32,538 nt of DNA from a bacterium BMS3Bbin13 (GTDB lineage: Bacteria; Pseudomonadota; Gammaproteobacteria; 21-64-14), in contig BDTW01000057.1 of NCBI GenBank assembly GCA_002897735.1, positions 1-32,538 of the forward strand, read 5' to 3'. The notes below the pieces were generated by a model. It was not told the DNA's origin and searched no databases. It was given only the letters and a program-made list of their open reading frames with translations. This document shows, piece after piece, positions 20,382 to 32,449 of the stretch; within the stretch, counting starts at the first letter, position 1; the number at the start of each line of letters is the position of its first letter. Position numbers and translations under genes: made by a program.

Positions 20382-20547
20382 GGCGCTTCCTGAGCCGGGC
20401 TCGTTCGGGATGGGCGCCTGCGCGGACCGCTGGGGGGAGAGGGCGCAACCCCGGCGCCGGGCGCGGCGCGGGCATATCGACCCCTCACCCGAAGCCTGTG
20501 TCGCGAAGGCCTGGGCGTATCACGGACCGGGCGCCGGGCCCGGCTCG

Positions 20548-20757
20548 ACCTCCGACAGGTCTTCGGACTCGGGGGCGGGCCGTGCCCGGTTGGGCACGGC
20601 GACCTCGACACACGGCTTCCCATCCCCGCGGGACAGTGCCTGGGATCCGCCGGACCCCGCGTGTGCCTCGTTCCCCCTCACCGCTGCGCGTCAGTCCCGG
20701 ATTTGCACCGGGTTCCCTTTTTCGGCCGACCCTACATATTGGGTCGACGCCGGAGGT
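20548..20757 (-). ncRNA. Cobalamin (AdoCbl) riboswitch upstream of nrdD
   Basis: On the minus strand the leader shows the ordered cobalamin-riboswitch landmarks: P1 ACCTCCG (20757-20751) pairing with CGGAGGT (20554-20548); GGGAACCCGGTGCAAATCCG and GGGACTG; the GCACTG and GGGAAGCC elements; and the B12 box GTCCGAAGACCTG. The 166-nt stretch from P1 to the nrdD ATG would be the expression platform. In it GAGCCGGGC (20546-20538), just after P1, is complementary to GCCCGGCTC (20400-20392) directly before the AGGAAG ribosome site, which suggests control of translation. Known biology: such switches shut B12-independent reductases when a B12-dependent class II enzyme can work. Confidence 0.92.
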
Positions 20758-20764
20758 AAGGCAC

Positions 20765-20793
20765 AAGATAAGGGGTAAATGCGGGGAACACAA
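20765..20793 (-). promoter_or_regulatory. Candidate sigma-70 promoter of the nrdD operon
   Basis: Minus strand: TTGTGT (20793-20788), 17-nt spacer, TATCTT (20770-20765). Matches are 3/6 and 4/6, but the position is apt: transcription would begin about 20758, exactly at the first base pair of the riboswitch P1 stem. Confidence 0.45.
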
Positions 20794-26297: not shown

Positions 26298-26632
26298 ATT
26301 TATCACTCACGCCCATGAATCCCCCCGCGCGCCCGTGGTCACCGGATTCGCGGCCCAGCGGTGCAGGGTCACCCCGCCTCTCGCGCGACTCAGCCCCAAA
26401 GCACCCCGGGATGACGCTTGACATAAAACGGGATGTGGCGCTTGATTCACTGAATGCTGAATGGAGCGCTGTCCGGCGCGGATACTGTAGTGGCGCACAC
26501 ACAACGCGCCGCACACCCGATCCGGCAGGCGGGATCCGGCCAGTCCATAGCCTCCTCAAAGCTCCTTTTGAAATTCCATTTCGGCTCCGTTTAATGCACA
26601 ACAAGTCCATGATTTTCTGGAAGCCGGATTCG
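26298..26632. other. Boundary between nif cluster and cassette region
   Basis: No gene is supported. Base composition shifts from very GC-rich to mixed across this stretch. A TTGACA at 26418-26423 is followed at 17 nt by CTTGAT, a poor -10, so a cassette promoter is possible but unproved. The final frame ending in TAA at 26636-26638 might be the last codons of a lost cassette gene. Confidence 0.35.
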
Positions 26633-26704: not shown

Positions 26705-27514
26705 ATGAAAGAAGTTGACATACTGCCATTGACCGTAGATCTCGTCGGAAGTTTCTTTCGATCCTCCCGCGATGCCCTTGAACGCGCTCATCATGCGAAG
26801 TCGATCCAGCCAGCGATTCCTGAGGCAACCGGACTCAACATCTTCACGCATCGCAGAGGCGAAACACAGGCTTCTCTGGAGAGTCTGGTGTTCTCCTTCC
26901 TAACCATCGAGGCGACCATCAACTACACCTTCTTCCACCAACAAAGGTCCTCACATTCGACACCAATGGACGAATGGTTGCGAAACAAGTGGAAGCAGCA
27001 CCTCAGCGTCTATGATCGCTTCGTGCTACTCATTGCACACTACTCATCTGACTCCCCCGACAGACACCAGCGCATTGTCACACTCCTCCGGGAGTTCATC
27101 AGATTCCGCAACCGGATCGTGCATGCGCATCCCGAGGAATATGCTGCTCTGGTTGAGTCGGGTGACGAACCTGACCAAGTCCTTATCCACGATGTGGAAC
27201 GGGTGTCGCAGACGAAGGCTTTCCCGATGTCGGGACTTTCTGAAGAAATCGGAAGGATAGACAGTCACGACGCGGCTCGGGCATTCGAGGTCATGTTGAT
27301 CGTTGTTGCATTTCTTGATGAGCAGTTCGTTTCCGAACTGGAATTACCATGGCCAACAGGTGTTGCCGGTTCCAACCAGCAACGGGGCGTGAGCCCGGCA
27401 GGCATTCTTTTGGCAATGGATGTTCGTCAATACCCAAAGATCGACCTAGGCACGTTCGTCCCGGAAGTGATCGTAAACCTAAGGGCACAACAAGAACCTG
27501 AACGCGACAAGTGA
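26705..27514 (+). CDS. HEPN-like protein, possible RNase effector
   Basis: The 269-aa protein is not a family I can name. It is helical and contains RFRNRIVHAHPEEY, i.e. R135-N-R-I-V-H140, the RX4H motif of HEPN domains; many of these are RNases in toxin, abortive-infection and CRISPR proteins. A second conserved-looking feature is the upstream Phe/Glu-rich helix LESLVFSFLTIEATINYTFF. No signal peptide or membrane helix is seen. GC content is clearly lower than in the nif genes. It sits alone in an apparent cassette, 78 nt before a STAND gene that also carries a HEPN-type motif, so the two may act together. Start ATG 26705 has only a weak AAGAG site. Confidence 0.6.
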   Translation: MKEVDILPLTVDLVGSFFRSSRDALERAHHAKSIQPAIPEATGLNIFTHRRGETQASLESLVFSFLTIEATINYTFFHQQRSSHSTPMDEWLRNKWKQHLSVYDRFVLLIAHYSSDSPDRHQRIVTLLREFIRFRNRIVHAHPEEYAALVESGDEPDQVLIHDVERVSQTKAFPMSGLSEEIGRIDSHDAARAFEVMLIVVAFLDEQFVSELELPWPTGVAGSNQQRGVSPAGILLAMDVRQYPKIDLGTFVPEVIVNLRAQQEPERDK

Positions 27515-27565
27515 AGGCCGCCGCAGCCGGCGTCCTCCCCTTGCGCGTTAGGTTAGTCGCTGGGC
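27485..27565 (+). other. Candidate attC site between HEPN and STAND cassettes
   Basis: The core 27496-27553 folds into a long imperfect hairpin: ACCT-G-AACGCG-A-CAAG on the left pairs with CTTG-CGCG-TTAGGT on the right, leaving an extrahelical G and A on one strand as attC sites do. Outer boxes are GCACAAC (27485-27491) and GCTGGGC (27559-27565). GCTGGGCGTCAC is complementary (11 of 12) to the start of the next attC (GTGACGCCCA plus AC). The exact limits, and whether GTTAGGT at 27547 is the true R' box, are uncertain. Confidence 0.5.
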
Positions 27566-27592
27566 GTCACTTTTACTCTGCAGGAGACTTGA

Positions 27593-30211
27593 ATGATGAA
27601 GGCAGGCCCCCTTCTTGAGCAAATGCAAGTTCGCCTCGCTTTCGACAAGGAAGAGGGCGATATTGCGTACTTCTATGCGTTGCTTTTTCAACTTGAGTAC
27701 CTAACGAAGCTAGTAGTCTCCGGAGTCGTGGCCTGCTTGGGTGAAGATGCTGATAGGAGTAGGTACTCACTGGAATACGAACTCGTGCGTGCTGACTCAA
27801 TAGGTGATTGGGTAACGTCACTCAATTCGGTTCTGACGGGGCCGGCCGCGCAATTTTTCATCCCGAAAGCGACCCACATAACGCGTGATTTAACGGAACG
27901 AGTACCCGAAGGTGACTGGAGATATCATGCCGTCTCAAAAATTTCCGAGGTGGCACTGAGGTTTGGGCTTGATGCAAAAATAGGGAACAGAGTCGCACTT
28001 CGTCAGTTCTTCGAATTTGCTGCTGGAATTCGGAACCGAACTCGTGGTCATGGTGCGGTTACGAGCAACGAATGCAACGCAGTGTGTCCTGCACTTGAAG
28101 ACGCCATGAATGCGATCGTCAGCAATCTCCGGCTCTTCAAGCATGACTGGGCTCACATCCATAGGAATCTATCTGGGAAATACCGAGTCTCCCCACTACT
28201 CGGTGGGTGTGCAGACTTCGCATACCTTAAGAGCACTAAGGAGGAAGGGATCCAGAATGGCGTTTATGTGAGCATAGACGGCCTACATTTGCTTCCGTTT
28301 ATTTACAGTAATGTAGGGATTGATGACATTCTGGTTCCGAATGGAAACTTCAAGTCAAAAGAATTTGAAGTTCTTTCATTCATTACGAATGAAGTAGCAA
28401 GAAAGAATGGATCATCGTGGTCAATCCCTCCGGGCAGGCTTCCTCCCAGTCATACCGAGGGACGAAATTGTCTCGACCAACTGGGCAACACCTTTACAAA
28501 CCTGCCAGAGCAGCCTACGGGTCACATCGCAAGAGAACGGCTAGAAAGCAAATTATTGGAGGAACTCCTAAAACTGGATCGTCACCCTATCATAGCGCTC
28601 ACTGGAACAGGTGGGATCGGAAAAACTACGCTTACACTTGCAGTAGTTGAATCTCTTGCAAAATCTGCGGATTGCCCTTACGAGGTAATTCTATGGATGA
28701 GTTCGCGGGACGTCGATCTTCTCGATTCGGGGCCCAAGCCAGTAAATCCCAAGGTCGTTACAAAGATCTCGATTTCTAGATTTGCCGCCGAACTCCTTGA
28801 GCCTCAGGAACAAAAAGGTAAGGGTTTCGATCCCCAATCATATTTCGAAAATTGCTTGGCCAAAGGTGCGGCAGGTAAAACTTTATTCATTCTTGACAAC
28901 TTTGAAACAGTCGAAAATCCGGCTGAGGTTTTTCAATGGATCGATACACATATTCGCCATCCGAATAAGGTGCTAATTACGACGCGATTCAGAGATTTCC
29001 ATGGTGACTATCCTATCGAGATCGGCGGAATGACTGATTCGGAAGCTAACCTACTCGTTAATCAAGAGGCGAAGAGGCTCGGAGTCTTGGAGCTGATGTC
29101 GGGAGACTACACGCGTAAATTGATAGAAGAGTCCGACGGACATCCTTACGTGATAAAGATTCTGTTGGGTCAGGTAGCGAAAGAGCGACGCGCGGTCAAA
29201 CCCGAACGAATTATTGCGAACGAAGACCAGCTACTCGTTGCGCTATTTGAAAGGACGTTCGAAGGGCTCAGTCCAGCCGGCCAGCGGGTTTTCTTGTTGC
29301 TTTCTAGCTGGCGGGCCTTTGTTCCGGCGATTGCCGTTGAGGCTGTCGCGCTTAGGCCAGCGAATGAGCGATTCAACGTCCTTGGCGCGATTGATGAGCT
29401 CCGGAGGTATTCATTTATTGAAGTTATTAGCGAATCAGAAGATGAGTCTTTCGTCGGGGTTCCTCTGGCAGCTGCGAGTTTTGGGCGAAGAAAACTGGAA
29501 GTCAGCTCGTTCAAAGTTGCAGTCGAACAGGATCGGAAGATTCTAATGGAGTTTGGTGCTGGTAACCGCGAATCTTCACGGCAAGGAGTCATGCCAAGAA
29601 TCGACAGGTTGGTGGGGGTAGCGGCCGCGCGAGCTAGCGATAATCCTAAAGCGTTGAAGGAGTTTTTGCCAATTCTCGAGTATCTAGCATCCAGGATCCC
29701 GAAAGCGTACTTGCGGATTGCAAGACTTCTTAATGAATCCGCTGACGGTGCGGCGGACCCGGAGCGAGTAAAGGGATATTTGCGCCGGTATCTTGAGAGT
29801 TCTGATACGAGCGAAATTGAAATGGTCTGGTTTTGGTTGGCAGACCTTTGTCATTCTACTGATGATGCCATTGGAGAAGTTCACGCCCTAGGAGAGGTTG
29901 CAATGCTCCCAACGGCGACTTCGGAAACAATTGGCATTGTCGCGAATCGGATCAATAACAAGCTGCGTGATCTAAAAGTCCGTGGGGTTGAAGATTCCTG
30001 GTCAGATGAGGTGCAACAGCTCATTGAAAGGGTTGCGGAGGAAATGCGTCGACATCTGCCGGATTTAGATGCTACCGACTGTTCAAGACTTGCGTGGTTG
30101 TATTTGAACATAGGAAACGCAGATCGGGCTCGCGATATTGCAAAAGTAGGAGTTGAAAAGGATTCCGCTCATGAGCATTGTTTGCGACTCATTGAACGGC
30201 TAGAGCTATAA
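27593..30211 (+). CDS. STAND NTPase (NB-ARC type) with N-terminal HEPN-like motif
   Basis: An 872-aa signal-transducing ATPase. Residues 1-300 form an unfamiliar sensor/effector region with RNRTRGHG (R147 to H153, RX5H), a HEPN-type signature. The NB-ARC core follows: Walker A TGTGGIGKTT (K344), Walker B LFILDNFE (D435), the ITTR sensor (R465) and GHPYVIKILLG in place of GLPL. After about residue 550 come a winged-helix-like part (LSPAGQRVFLLLSSWRAF) and a helical TPR-like tail (DCSRLAWLYLNIGNADRARD). Such plans belong to anti-phage STAND proteins (Avs-like), where target sensing releases an effector; that role is inference. ATG 27593 follows AGGAG; a second ATG is adjacent. The codons are AT-richer than those of the chromosomal core. 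Confidence 0.8.
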   Translation: MMKAGPLLEQMQVRLAFDKEEGDIAYFYALLFQLEYLTKLVVSGVVACLGEDADRSRYSLEYELVRADSIGDWVTSLNSVLTGPAAQFFIPKATHITRDLTERVPEGDWRYHAVSKISEVALRFGLDAKIGNRVALRQFFEFAAGIRNRTRGHGAVTSNECNAVCPALEDAMNAIVSNLRLFKHDWAHIHRNLSGKYRVSPLLGGCADFAYLKSTKEEGIQNGVYVSIDGLHLLPFIYSNVGIDDILVPNGNFKSKEFEVLSFITNEVARKNGSSWSIPPGRLPPSHTEGRNCLDQLGNTFTNLPEQPTGHIARERLESKLLEELLKLDRHPIIALTGTGGIGKTTLTLAVVESLAKSADCPYEVILWMSSRDVDLLDSGPKPVNPKVVTKISISRFAAELLEPQEQKGKGFDPQSYFENCLAKGAAGKTLFILDNFETVENPAEVFQWIDTHIRHPNKVLITTRFRDFHGDYPIEIGGMTDSEANLLVNQEAKRLGVLELMSGDYTRKLIEESDGHPYVIKILLGQVAKERRAVKPERIIANEDQLLVALFERTFEGLSPAGQRVFLLLSSWRAFVPAIAVEAVALRPANERFNVLGAIDELRRYSFIEVISESEDESFVGVPLAAASFGRRKLEVSSFKVAVEQDRKILMEFGAGNRESSRQGVMPRIDRLVGVAAARASDNPKALKEFLPILEYLASRIPKAYLRIARLLNESADGAADPERVKGYLRRYLESSDTSEIEMVWFWLADLCHSTDDAIGEVHALGEVAMLPTATSETIGIVANRINNKLRDLKVRGVEDSWSDEVQQLIERVAEEMRRHLPDLDATDCSRLAWLYLNIGNADRARDIAKVGVEKDSAHEHCLRLIERLEL

Positions 30212-30222
30212 CGCTTGTGATG

Positions 30223-30232
30223 GTGACGCCCA
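30223..30232 (+). other. Left piece of a split attC (R'' box interrupted by intron)
   Basis: GTGACGCCCA stands immediately before the bottom-strand intron. Joined to ACAAGGCG at 31289 it becomes GTGACGCCCAACAAGGCG, carrying the R'' box GCCCAAC. Its complement GCTGGGCGTCAC begins the STAND cassette at 27559. Confidence 0.75.
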
Positions 30233-30325
30233 ATCGGGTAATGGCGGAGGTTTAGCCCGCCCTCCCACACCGCCTGGCATGCGGGTCCGCACCAGGCGGT
30301 TCACGAGAAGGGAGGACACGAGGGG

Positions 30326-30614
30326 TCAGGCATCGCCATGGGCCTTCATTCACATAGTGCGGATATCGATCAGCCCCTGGCTCTTCAGCCACTCATTGGT
30401 CATCCCGGATTGTGTCGCCGGCGTCTGCGACAGGTGCCGGCAGCTCTTGCTGCTGAGTGGCGTCAGGATCGCGTGGCGTCTGCTCGTTCCTAGGGCCGGC
30501 AGGTTGCGTACCTTAGTTCGCGTTCTGCGCCACTGTTTCCAGTAACACATGCGAATGCGGCGGCGCAGCCACTGATCGAGTTCCGAAATAGCATCCACAC
30601 GCCCGCGTCCGAAC
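30326..30614 (-). pseudogene. ltrA: C-terminal remnant of group II intron maturase
   Basis: The minus-strand frame reads ISELDQWLRRRIRMCYWKQW, then RRTRTKVRNLPALGTSRRHA, then GMTNEWLKSQGLIDIRTM: the X/maturase domain end of intron reverse transcriptases. The final codons carry a nonsense change (TGA at 30352-30350 where relatives have Trp), followed in frame by MKAHGDA and the original-looking stop at 30328-30326. Everything upstream, including the reverse transcriptase and its YADD box, is absent, cut at about 30615 by a foreign repeat. It is non-functional. Confidence 0.85.
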
Positions 30615-30680
30615 GAATTCTGGGACAGCGTACCTAATCTGTGCCTGTCTGTTATGTGATTACGGTGATCCGCGGACCGG
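30615..30680 (+). repeat. 66-bp direct repeat, copy 1
   Basis: It begins GAATTCTGGGACAGC and ends ATCCGCGGACCGG, and matches 32263-32328 at about 60 of 66 positions. Its first 17-20 nt also recur inverted at 30747-30765 (minus strand TTCCGGGGACAGTATACCC), so 30618-30765 is a 148-bp unit with terminal inverted repeats, like a small non-autonomous element. The GGGGACAG...TAC motif resembles ends I associate with IS200/Y1-type transposases; that link is recall, not proof. Confidence 0.6.
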
Positions 30681-30896
30681 CCTCGGCCTCTCCTTGAACG
30701 ACTGCAAACGCCGGCGCGATCCGGCGAGCTGGTGACAATCACAAATGGGTATACTGTCCCCGGAACACCTACCGGATCACCCTCAAGGGTGAGTCGACGC
30801 GCAAACATCGGGGCAGAAACTTGACCGCAACCACCCCCGGCGAGTAACAATACAGGCCCGCGTCGCTTTGCTCCGACTGCCCCGGCCTAATCACCG

Positions 30897-30975
30897 TGGA
30901 ACCGGTGTCCGAATGCGTCTGGAATTTCTGGCCGGATGCCGCTGGAACCGGTGGCCGAATCACGTGGAATGCGCA
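30897..30975 (+). repeat. Tandem 22-23-bp repeats, probably an IS21-type end
   Basis: Units starting TGGAA occur at 30897, 30920, 30943 and 30965 (spacings 23, 23, 22), with a consensus near TGGAACCGGTGTCCGAATGCG. Serial sites of this kind at element ends bind IS21-family transposases. No istA or istB remains beside them. They lie inside the group II intron, between domain I and the maturase remnant. Confidence 0.5.
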
Positions 30976-31288
30976 CTCAGTCCGGCTCCCGCATGCCGGG
31001 AAGATCTCCCCGAATAAGAACATGAACTGTCCGTGCACAACCGCCGCATTCACCCTGTCCCCCGCACCGGTTGGGATTCGTCATCTTGTGCTGACTCGCC
31101 CGGGGACTGGGCCTTATATGCGATTTCTGTCCGTCGTCTCGCACTTTTGCGCTCAGGCTTCCTTCGAACATCCCCTCACGGGTTTGCCCTTGCGTCGGCT
31201 AGTAGTTACATTGGTCCAAATTCCAGACACTACAGGTGCTCCTACAGGGGACTCTCACCCCATCAGTTCATGCCCATGTCGGGCGTAC

Positions 31289-31346
31289 ACAAGGCGCTCC
31301 GCCAGCCGACGCCAAAAAGCGGCGCGGCTAAGCGGGGTCGTTGGGC
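31289..31346 (+). other. Right piece of the split attC, before the Cas4-like cassette
   Basis: The sequence runs from ACAAGGCG to the R' box GTTGGGC (31340-31346). Inside, GCCAGCCGACGCC pairs with GGCGCGGCTAAGC and leaves an unpaired A, a standard attC feature. Together with 30228-30232 it makes a 63-nt attC with exactly complementary R'' (GCCCAAC) and R' (GTTGGGC). Confidence 0.8.
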
Positions 31347-31353
31347 GCAGACA

Positions 31354-32166
31354 ATGATTAGCAAAGGCTTACCATCAAAGCCACTTACCAAGCAGTCGCT
31401 TACGAAGCTTCTGCGTGCGGAGAAGAAAAGGCGAGGAATACCGCAATCACAGTTAGTCTTTGTCGGGATACACAATATCGCACAATGGTGGTGGTGCGGT
31501 ATGTATTCAGTGCTGAAGAGTCAAAGAAATGAACTCGAATTCTTTGCCACCTATCTGGCTGATCGCGTTTCTCTAGCGCTCTCGCTCGATCAAGTTGACA
31601 CAATACCTACGGCTGCATTTGAATTGCTCGAAGTAGGCGCCGGCCTAACCTTGGCTGATCTAGAGCTACACACAAAGTCGTCGACTCAGGCACAATCGCA
31701 AGACATAGTAGCCGATTTAATTTCCATATCCCCAGCCATTGATAAATACGAGAATGGTCTGGCTGTAGAAATGGCTCAGGCTGAGCGTTATCCTAAGCTT
31801 CGGTGGTCTTTTCAGTGGAATGATTTTGTTTTGATCGGCATTCCGGATGGGATCACAAAGAAGATTGTATATGAGTTTAAGGCCTCATCAAATGAGCATT
31901 TCTTCAGGACTGCGGCGCGCCCAATTGCGAACACACAGGCTGATCTGTACGGCTTGTTCTTTGGTCGAAACGAAAAGCGCGTTCAAGTCTATATACGCGA
32001 AACTGGGGAGGTGATTACATTGGAAGGGCCTATTGACAAAGATCGGGCAATATCAACCTTGCGTAAGTTTGCTTCCGTGGTTGCCGGCAGCCTACCGATG
32101 GCGCCGAAACCCTTTAAGTGCGTGTCTTGTGAAGAGCGTGATGCCTGCACAATTCGAGCACGTTAG
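31354..32166 (+). CDS. Solitary Cas4-like Fe-S exonuclease (PD-(D/E)xK)
   Basis: A 270-aa protein with the Cas4/RecB-nuclease plan. One N-terminal Cys (C48 in WWWCGMYS) and three C-terminal ones (C256, C259, C265 in CVSCEERDAC) make the four ligands of a [4Fe-4S] cluster. The nuclease core has D165 in IGIPDG, E174 and K176 in YEFKAS, and a QxxxY motif in TQADLYGLF. It should degrade or trim single DNA strands. No cas1, cas2 or repeat array is present, so it is not an ordinary CRISPR adaptation gene. The ATG at 31354 is 8 nt after the attC R' box; the open frame upstream to 31033 is intron and attC DNA, not coding. No strong ribosome site is seen. It is AT-richer than the core genome. Confidence 0.85.
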   Translation: MISKGLPSKPLTKQSLTKLLRAEKKRRGIPQSQLVFVGIHNIAQWWWCGMYSVLKSQRNELEFFATYLADRVSLALSLDQVDTIPTAAFELLEVGAGLTLADLELHTKSSTQAQSQDIVADLISISPAIDKYENGLAVEMAQAERYPKLRWSFQWNDFVLIGIPDGITKKIVYEFKASSNEHFFRTAARPIANTQADLYGLFFGRNEKRVQVYIRETGEVITLEGPIDKDRAISTLRKFASVVAGSLPMAPKPFKCVSCEERDACTIRAR

Positions 32167-32202
32167 GATAATCATGCCTTATTCGTTACTCCAAGTCGCT
32201 GC

Positions 32203-32263
32203 GCCCAACAAGGCGCACCAGCCGACCACTCAACCGCTACGCGGTTTCGTGTCGGCTGGTGCG
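32203..32263 (+). other. attC after the Cas4-like cassette, missing its R' box
   Basis: R'' GCCCAAC (32203-32209), then AAGGCGCACCAGCCGAC, a loop with CCGCTACGCGG, and GTCGGCTGGTGCG (32251-32263), which pairs with CGCACCAGCCGAC. A final GTTGGGC should follow but GAATTCGGGGACAGC begins instead, so another element has replaced the R' end. CTGCGCCCAAC (32199-32209) is the exact complement of GTTGGGCGCAG (31340-31350). Confidence 0.8.
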
Positions 32264-32328
32264 AATTCGGGGACAGCACACCTAATCCGTGCCTGTCTGT
32301 TATGCGATTACGGTGATCCGCGGACCGG
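32263..32328 (+). repeat. 66-bp direct repeat, copy 2
   Basis: This is the second copy of the sequence at 30615-30680 (GAATTCGGGGACAGC ... CCGCGGACCGG). It follows the truncated attC directly. The pair flanks the right half of the intron and the whole Cas4-like cassette, so recombination between the copies would delete 1.65 kb containing that cassette. Confidence 0.65.
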
Positions 32329-32449
32329 TGTTACGTCCCGCCCTATTTTCACCACTTCATTCCGACCTATTTGAGGTGAGATAAGCGAGGTTATCCCACG
32401 CTCTTTCGGGGAGGACTGATGCCTTCAAGAGCGTGGGACGAGAGTGGTG
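32329..32449. other. Insertion-sequence tail without a gene
   Basis: Minus-strand wording GGTCGGAATGAAGTGG and a nearby hairpin with arms CCCACGCTCTT and AAGAGCGTGGG (32396-32438) suggest the downstream end of an insertion sequence whose transposase ends at 32450. No ORF is supported. Confidence 0.4.

Follow-up and report, generated by a model that had tools for sequence, protein, structure and literature searches.

Integrons are already known to carry nuclease cassettes. Many integron cassettes, cited for Vibrio and mobile integrons, are anti-phage, and integrons are regarded as libraries of anti-phage functions (reviewed in PMC12409362 and PMC12444791). On the nuclease side, solo-Cas4 proteins occur outside CRISPR loci, with defence or repair proposed for them, and mobile-element Cas4 proteins have been described as well (PMC5704561). 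In addition, a Cas4-like nuclease lowers the transfer or maintenance of RSF1010 plasmids in Synechococcus elongatus (PMC10653904). Against this background, what appears to be new at the locus described here is a Cas4-type protein carried as an integron cassette, an arrangement for which a word-based, non-exhaustive search of the open-access literature returned no example.

The window, meaning the whole stretch of DNA analysed (32,538 nt), is the entire contig C57 of a 2.69-Mb assembly that is 96.9% complete. GC content is 67% up to position 26400 and 48-53% across the three genes that follow. The features listed here make up the end of a decayed integron cassette array of the chromosome.

27493-27553, plus strand: possible attC of an earlier cassette A, tentative; a hairpin flanked by CCTGAAC and GTTAGGT.
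27593-30211, plus strand: gene of cassette B, encoding an 872-aa NB-ARC ATPase (Pfam NB-ARC, 2.9e-10).
30233-31288, minus strand: degenerate group IIC-attC intron lying in R'' of the cassette B attC, recognised by RF02001, GIIM and similarity to plasmid p1.
31289-31346, plus strand: right part of the cassette B attC, which ends in R' GTTGGGC (31340-31346) and folds as an attC when joined to 30223-30232.
31341-32263, plus strand: integron gene cassette C, beginning with TTGGGC, directly behind the G of R' upstream, and truncated at its right end; supported by an R'/R'' pair, a circular-junction fold and a match to the attC model R1.
31354-32166, plus strand: gene for a predicted Cas4-like Fe-S PD-(D/E)XK nuclease, supported by an intact 270-aa ORF, motifs, Cas4 profiles, fold and homologues.
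32199-32263, plus strand: attC of cassette C, with R'' CTGCGCCCAAC and a stem at 32214-32226/32251-32263; R' box absent.
32262-32328, plus strand: repeat of about 66 nt, CGAATTCGGGGACAG..., directly adjoining the truncated attC; a second copy lies at 30614-30680.

Elsewhere in the window, a cobalamin riboswitch (RF00174, 77 bits) is found at 20537-20769 on the minus strand.

The protein encoded by cassette C is very probably a nuclease of the Cas4/Exo5 type. Its only cysteines are residues 48, 256, 259 and 265, and its core residues are D165 (within PDG), E174-F-K176 and Q195-A-D-L-Y199, so that the motif positions given in the original prediction (four cysteines, D165, E174-x-K176 and QxxxY) are all exact in the 270-aa ORF. 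Nine positions, namely C48, C256, C259, C265, D165, E174, K176, Q195 and Y199, are invariant in all five sequences (the ORF and four homologues), and the four cysteines of Fe-S type follow the arrangement C48 plus C256-x2-C259-x5-C265. The reading frame is open on its 5' side to 31033; the start at 31354 is preferred because the N-termini of the homologues align approximately at its M1. The unit had been placed at 31340-32209. Its 11-nt bounding pair stands, whereas the gene begins at 31354 and the cassette extends to about 32263.

Structure prediction, one of the checks named at the outset, returned a Cas4-like fold. In an AlphaFold2 model built from four sequences (pLDDT 57, pTM 0.57), a beta-beta-beta-alpha-beta core spans residues 151-214. 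The top Foldseek match of this model is Cas4 SSO0001 (PDB 4ic1; E 8e-6, prob 1.00). Next in rank are RecE, alkaline exonuclease, a DinG, Exo5 and ACE1, a Cas4 family protein associated with Argonaute. In VIA-align the model scores Z 10.3 against SSO0001 and 10.1 against human Exo5 (PDB 7lw7), with other Cas4 and RecB-type nucleases lower. The cysteine-bearing residues 40-53 and 251-270 score pLDDT <50 and are the poorest regions of the model; the putative Fe-S site is assigned from the sequence.

Profile searches point in the same direction at modest scores. The NCBIfam Cas4 model TIGR00372 matches the nuclease at E 0.0016 and 18.3 bits, far short of its equivalog cut-off of 65 bits, and PADLOC Cas4 matches at E 4e-4. 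Across the family, PADLOC Cas4 models match five of five members (best 2.5e-10, for a relative), Pfam Cas_Cas4 is matched by three of the five, and Pfam Exo5 is reached by one, at E 0.037. Searches with the cassette C nuclease alone gave no match to Pfam profiles, no relatives in the genome contig collection and no meaningful match in the PDB, the last two as single-sequence searches.

A hypothetical protein of a Thermoanaerobacterium plasmid was recovered as a relative by tblastn (29% identity, E 9e-20). Further relatives came through this match and then through a search with the two-sequence alignment, in MAGs labelled Micrarchaeota (L003), Woesearchaeota (L004) and Aminicenantes (L005). These four full-length homologues share 29-40% identity with the nuclease. 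A Chloroflexi MAG (L006) gave a weak match to residues 134-236 only, in an ORF without the cysteines, and was excluded from the family alignment, which has five members. Three ORFs in tandem at L006 5293-7336 look like the catalytic half of the family, lack the cysteines and adjoin a DNA methyltransferase-like gene.

A tree of 20 Cas4-like proteins places all five members of the family in one clade (support 98/98), distinct from the solo-Cas4-type proteins of the same and related archaeal genomes. Other Cas4-type proteins are also encoded in the genomes of the archaeal and Aminicenantes relatives. The family has WC where most of the compared Cas4 proteins show CxR or similar, and it bears a long insert ahead of the catalytic PD. 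The GxxxH helix motif of Cas4 carries a metal-binding histidine; most Cas4 proteins in the comparison have it, whereas in the family alignment G95 is retained and the histidine is absent or unconserved. By these sequence characters, the nuclease is a divergent Cas4-like protein in a sparse clade of its own rather than Cas4 proper. The claim of a Cas4-type nuclease is thereby narrowed: profiles, motifs and fold bear it out, and the divergent clade and the score below the Cas4 equivalog cut-off set its limit.

The distribution of the family is sparse. Scans of the phyla to which three relatives belong found it at strong E-values in 1/371, 1/396 and 1/156 genomes and otherwise gave only weaker Cas4-type matches. 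Beside these, they yielded a 105-aa fragment (G549 C2:305358-305624, L021) that matches the C-terminal part of the family only, at E 6.7e-30, and is perhaps a decayed copy. Two sets taken from the phylum and near relatives of the host, of 398 and 93 genomes, held no family member apart from that of the host itself, and vertical inheritance of the nuclease was rejected on this ground.

That the nuclease unit is an integron cassette is close to certain. The original prediction described it as bounded by an 11-nt perfect complement, and GTTGGGCGCAG at 31340-31350 and CTGCGCCCAAC at 32199-32209 do form a perfect 11-nt inverted pair. The pair represents R' and R'' of the attC that belongs to cassette C itself; within it, GTTGGGC (31340-31346) and GCCCAAC (32203-32209) fit RYYYAAC/GTTRRRY. 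When both flanking sequences were shuffled 20,000 times, a perfect 11-nt pair arose 22 times (about 0.1%), so the pair taken alone is unusual, not impossible. It is backed by the 13-bp perfect stem (32214-32226/32251-32263) directly after R'' and by the excised-circle junction of cassette C, which folds into one continuous attC hairpin of -36.6 kcal/mol with DNA parameters. The R1 covariance model matches 32201-32262; R1 was built from three sites, two from the window and one of them this very site, so both window matches are by construction, and its other scores are rough.

The right end of cassette C is incomplete. The attC ends at 32263 and is followed by the repeated element, with no R' after it, and excision via the normal right-hand site therefore looks impossible now. 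Cassette C is probably fixed, not excisable as it stands. Packaging as an integron cassette is thus upheld by the R'/R'' boxes, the stem and the circular attC fold, and qualified at this truncated end. Copies of the repeat of about 66 nt occur elsewhere in the host genome on contigs C8, C31, C34 and C38, and the second copy in the window (30614-30680) sits inside the intron remnant. On contig C46 (L070, about 1569), a similar repeat start, GGAATTCGGGGACAG, adjoins an attC-like site, and a repeat starting GAATTCGGGGACAG abuts attC-like hairpins twice in the genome, as if targeting or replacing the R' side of attC. A REP-like or IS200/605-like origin of the repeat is a guess.

Upstream, cassette B starts with TGGGCGTCAC (27561-27570), which complements its R'' GTGACGCCCA (30223-30232). 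Its NB-ARC ATPase gene is large for a cassette. The attC of cassette B is split by the intron, which runs from 31288 to 30233 on the minus strand, opposite in orientation to the cassettes, and is flanked by TTGT and TGGGC. Introns of the IIC-attC type target TTGT/T in R'' of attC (PMC7923331), and the insertion point matches this target on the attC bottom strand. The ribozyme domains D1-D4 are recognised at 31019-31185 on the minus strand (Rfam RF02001, 118 bits), and the maturase is down to a GIIM fragment (Pfam match within 30350-30850, minus strand). With the intron removed, GTGACGCCCA is joined to ACAAGGCGC... and folds as an attC.

The 3' end region, maturase remnant and 5' region of the intron align with a group II intron of Klebsiella michiganensis plasmid p1, located in a class 1 integron (intI1 cassettes) between a cassette and qacEdelta1, and the attC of cassette B resembles the attC adjoining that intron. 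A 311-nt part of the window intron is 85.6% identical to a plasmid of Candidatus Methylocalor cossyra. Preceding cassette B, a 269-aa gene may represent a third cassette; the possible attC of cassette A gave no match to the R1 model. Neither of the two genes upstream of the nuclease matched a PADLOC model.

The 32.5-kb contig carries no intI or attI, and the array is either a CALIN-like cluster without an integrase or one severed by the assembly. The very end of contig C52 encodes an integron-integrase-like protein, of which the C-terminal half is present (234 bits). Contig C34 has a shorter integrase fragment beside a 60-nt attC-like site (L046 7281-7340 and 7600-7760), which together are a second decayed integron remnant, and C46 holds further attC-like sites at E 3e-4 to 6e-3, rough scores from the R1 model. 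From these integrase fragments and additional attC-like sites, it follows that the host is an integron-bearing bacterium. A Cas1 search gave no match in the host genome and was positive in 9 of 14 control genomes. Given this negative result in a genome 96.9% complete, linkage to CRISPR was rejected, and the placement of the gene away from CRISPR is supported.

We lean towards the reading that the nuclease is a stand-alone Cas4-like enzyme captured as a cassette and defending against foreign DNA; for the defence role as such, the balance tips slightly in favour. The enzyme would bind an Fe-S cluster and a divalent metal, and, like Cas4 and Exo5, it may degrade DNA whose ends are free or single-stranded. 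Such degradation could limit incoming phage or plasmid DNA, either alone or together with host helicases. The gene would have been captured as a cassette and fixed later, the intron splitting the upstream attC and the repeat removing the R' of its own attC. The plasmid effect of the Cas4-like nuclease in Synechococcus elongatus (PMC10653904) and the anti-phage cassettes of integrons (PMC12409362, PMC12444791) speak for a defence role, and the gene neighbourhoods are consistent with it. The NB-ARC ATPase gene of the preceding cassette is a defence-like neighbour, the Aminicenantes relative (L005) has an HmaA/DrmD-type SNF2 helicase gene at a distance of 600 nt and an RmrA-like gene nearby, and the Woesearchaeota relative (L004) adjoins a TumE-type toxin gene. 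Against the favoured reading count the Cas4 score far under the cut-off, the modest confidence of the model, the unconserved GxxxH histidine and the two upstream genes that match no PADLOC model. Expression of the nuclease is uncertain as well, since the plus strand of 30200-32400 shows no promoter-like site ahead of the gene. A wider proposal, that the family is a distinct, CRISPR-independent and so far undescribed type of single-gene defence nuclease, moving as cargo among archaea and bacteria and here on an integron cassette, is tentative and rather doubtful.

Other readings deserve weight to different degrees. The structural match to human Exo5 is on a par with that to Cas4 (Z 10.1 vs 10.3), and repair is proposed next to defence for solo-Cas4 (PMC5704561); both would suit an Exo5-like repair or DNA-end-processing nuclease, captured in a cassette by chance, that acts on host single-stranded or flapped DNA and takes no part in defence. 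However, the very sparse distribution (1/371, 1/396 and 1/156, with no other member in 398 and 93 genomes) is unlike that of a housekeeping repair gene, and the neighbours are mobile or defence genes, so we consider this reading unlikely. The gene could also be a cassette pseudogene or silent passenger, intact and either unexpressed or no longer useful. The degenerate array, with its dead upstream intron and truncated attC, and the missing plus-strand promoter-like site in 30200-32400 fit that picture, but 270 intact codons and the retention of every catalytic and cysteine position at 29-40% family identity make it improbable.

A phage source was considered since Cas4-like nucleases are known in phages (PMC5704561) and phrog_1990 matches the nuclease weakly (E 0.23). 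No relative was present in 50,697 phage records or four IMG/VR scans, however, and no phage genes adjoin the nuclease gene. Phage origin was rejected on those zero counts; the counter-defence role first suggested finds no support in them, and a phage counter-defence or recombination nuclease acquired by the bacterium is very improbable. Relatives among Cas4 and Exo5 have single-stranded DNA as their substrate, and recombination of attC proceeds through a folded single strand; a nuclease that modulates integron recombination could thus act on cassette or attC single-stranded DNA. Yet relatives occur in archaea and on a plasmid, nothing links the family to integrases, and the association of homologues with attC that the original prediction had posed as a test did not appear. 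No attC-like site lies near the five relatives in other genomes (L002-L006), several of them on short contigs, in a scan that required both core boxes nearly intact and could miss a degenerate attC. Action on cassette DNA is thus left unsupported and has scarcely any probability. Cassette carriage is one instance, no proven habit of the family.

The favoured reading, a captured stand-alone Cas4-like nuclease, can be set beside several described systems. Cas4 itself (TIGR00372/PF01930/COG1468; SSO0001, 4ic1), the best structural match, shares the PD-(D/E)XK core with D, E-x-K and QxxxY, and the same arrangement of four cysteines, one N-terminal and a C-terminal C-x2-C-x5-C. Unlike Cas4, the cassette nuclease stands without cas1/cas2 or CRISPR context, scores under the cut-off, lacks CxR after the first cysteine, leaves GxxxH unconserved and carries a long insert before PD. 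Exonuclease V (Exo5; PDB 7lw7) has in common the fold of an Fe-S PD-(D/E)XK single-strand nuclease (Z 10.1), but it is eukaryotic and 13% identical, and the cassette nuclease has no mitochondrial or repair context. With group IIC-attC introns (PMC7923331), the window intron shares its position at TTGT/T in R'' of attC and its orientation opposite to the cassettes, whereas the window copy is degenerate and its maturase a fragment.

Solo-Cas4 and MGE-Cas4 (Hudaiberdiev et al. 2017, PMC5704561) resemble the present case as Cas4-like genes outside CRISPR and on mobile elements, with similar kinds of host (DPANN archaea, Thermoanaerobacterales and Chloroflexi). They differ in that the text of PMC5704561 leaves integrons unmentioned and that the nuclease clade is separate, a small Cas4-like clade common to DPANN archaea, Aminicenantes, a Thermoanaerobacterium plasmid and an integron. 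A member carried on a cassette, in a genome where no Cas1 was detected, makes a natural unit of one gene. The anti-phage cassettes of Vibrio and mobile integrons (cited in PMC12409362 and PMC12444791) are likewise single genes with a probable DNA-targeting function, and the cassette nuclease would extend the stock of integron functions by an Fe-S nuclease.
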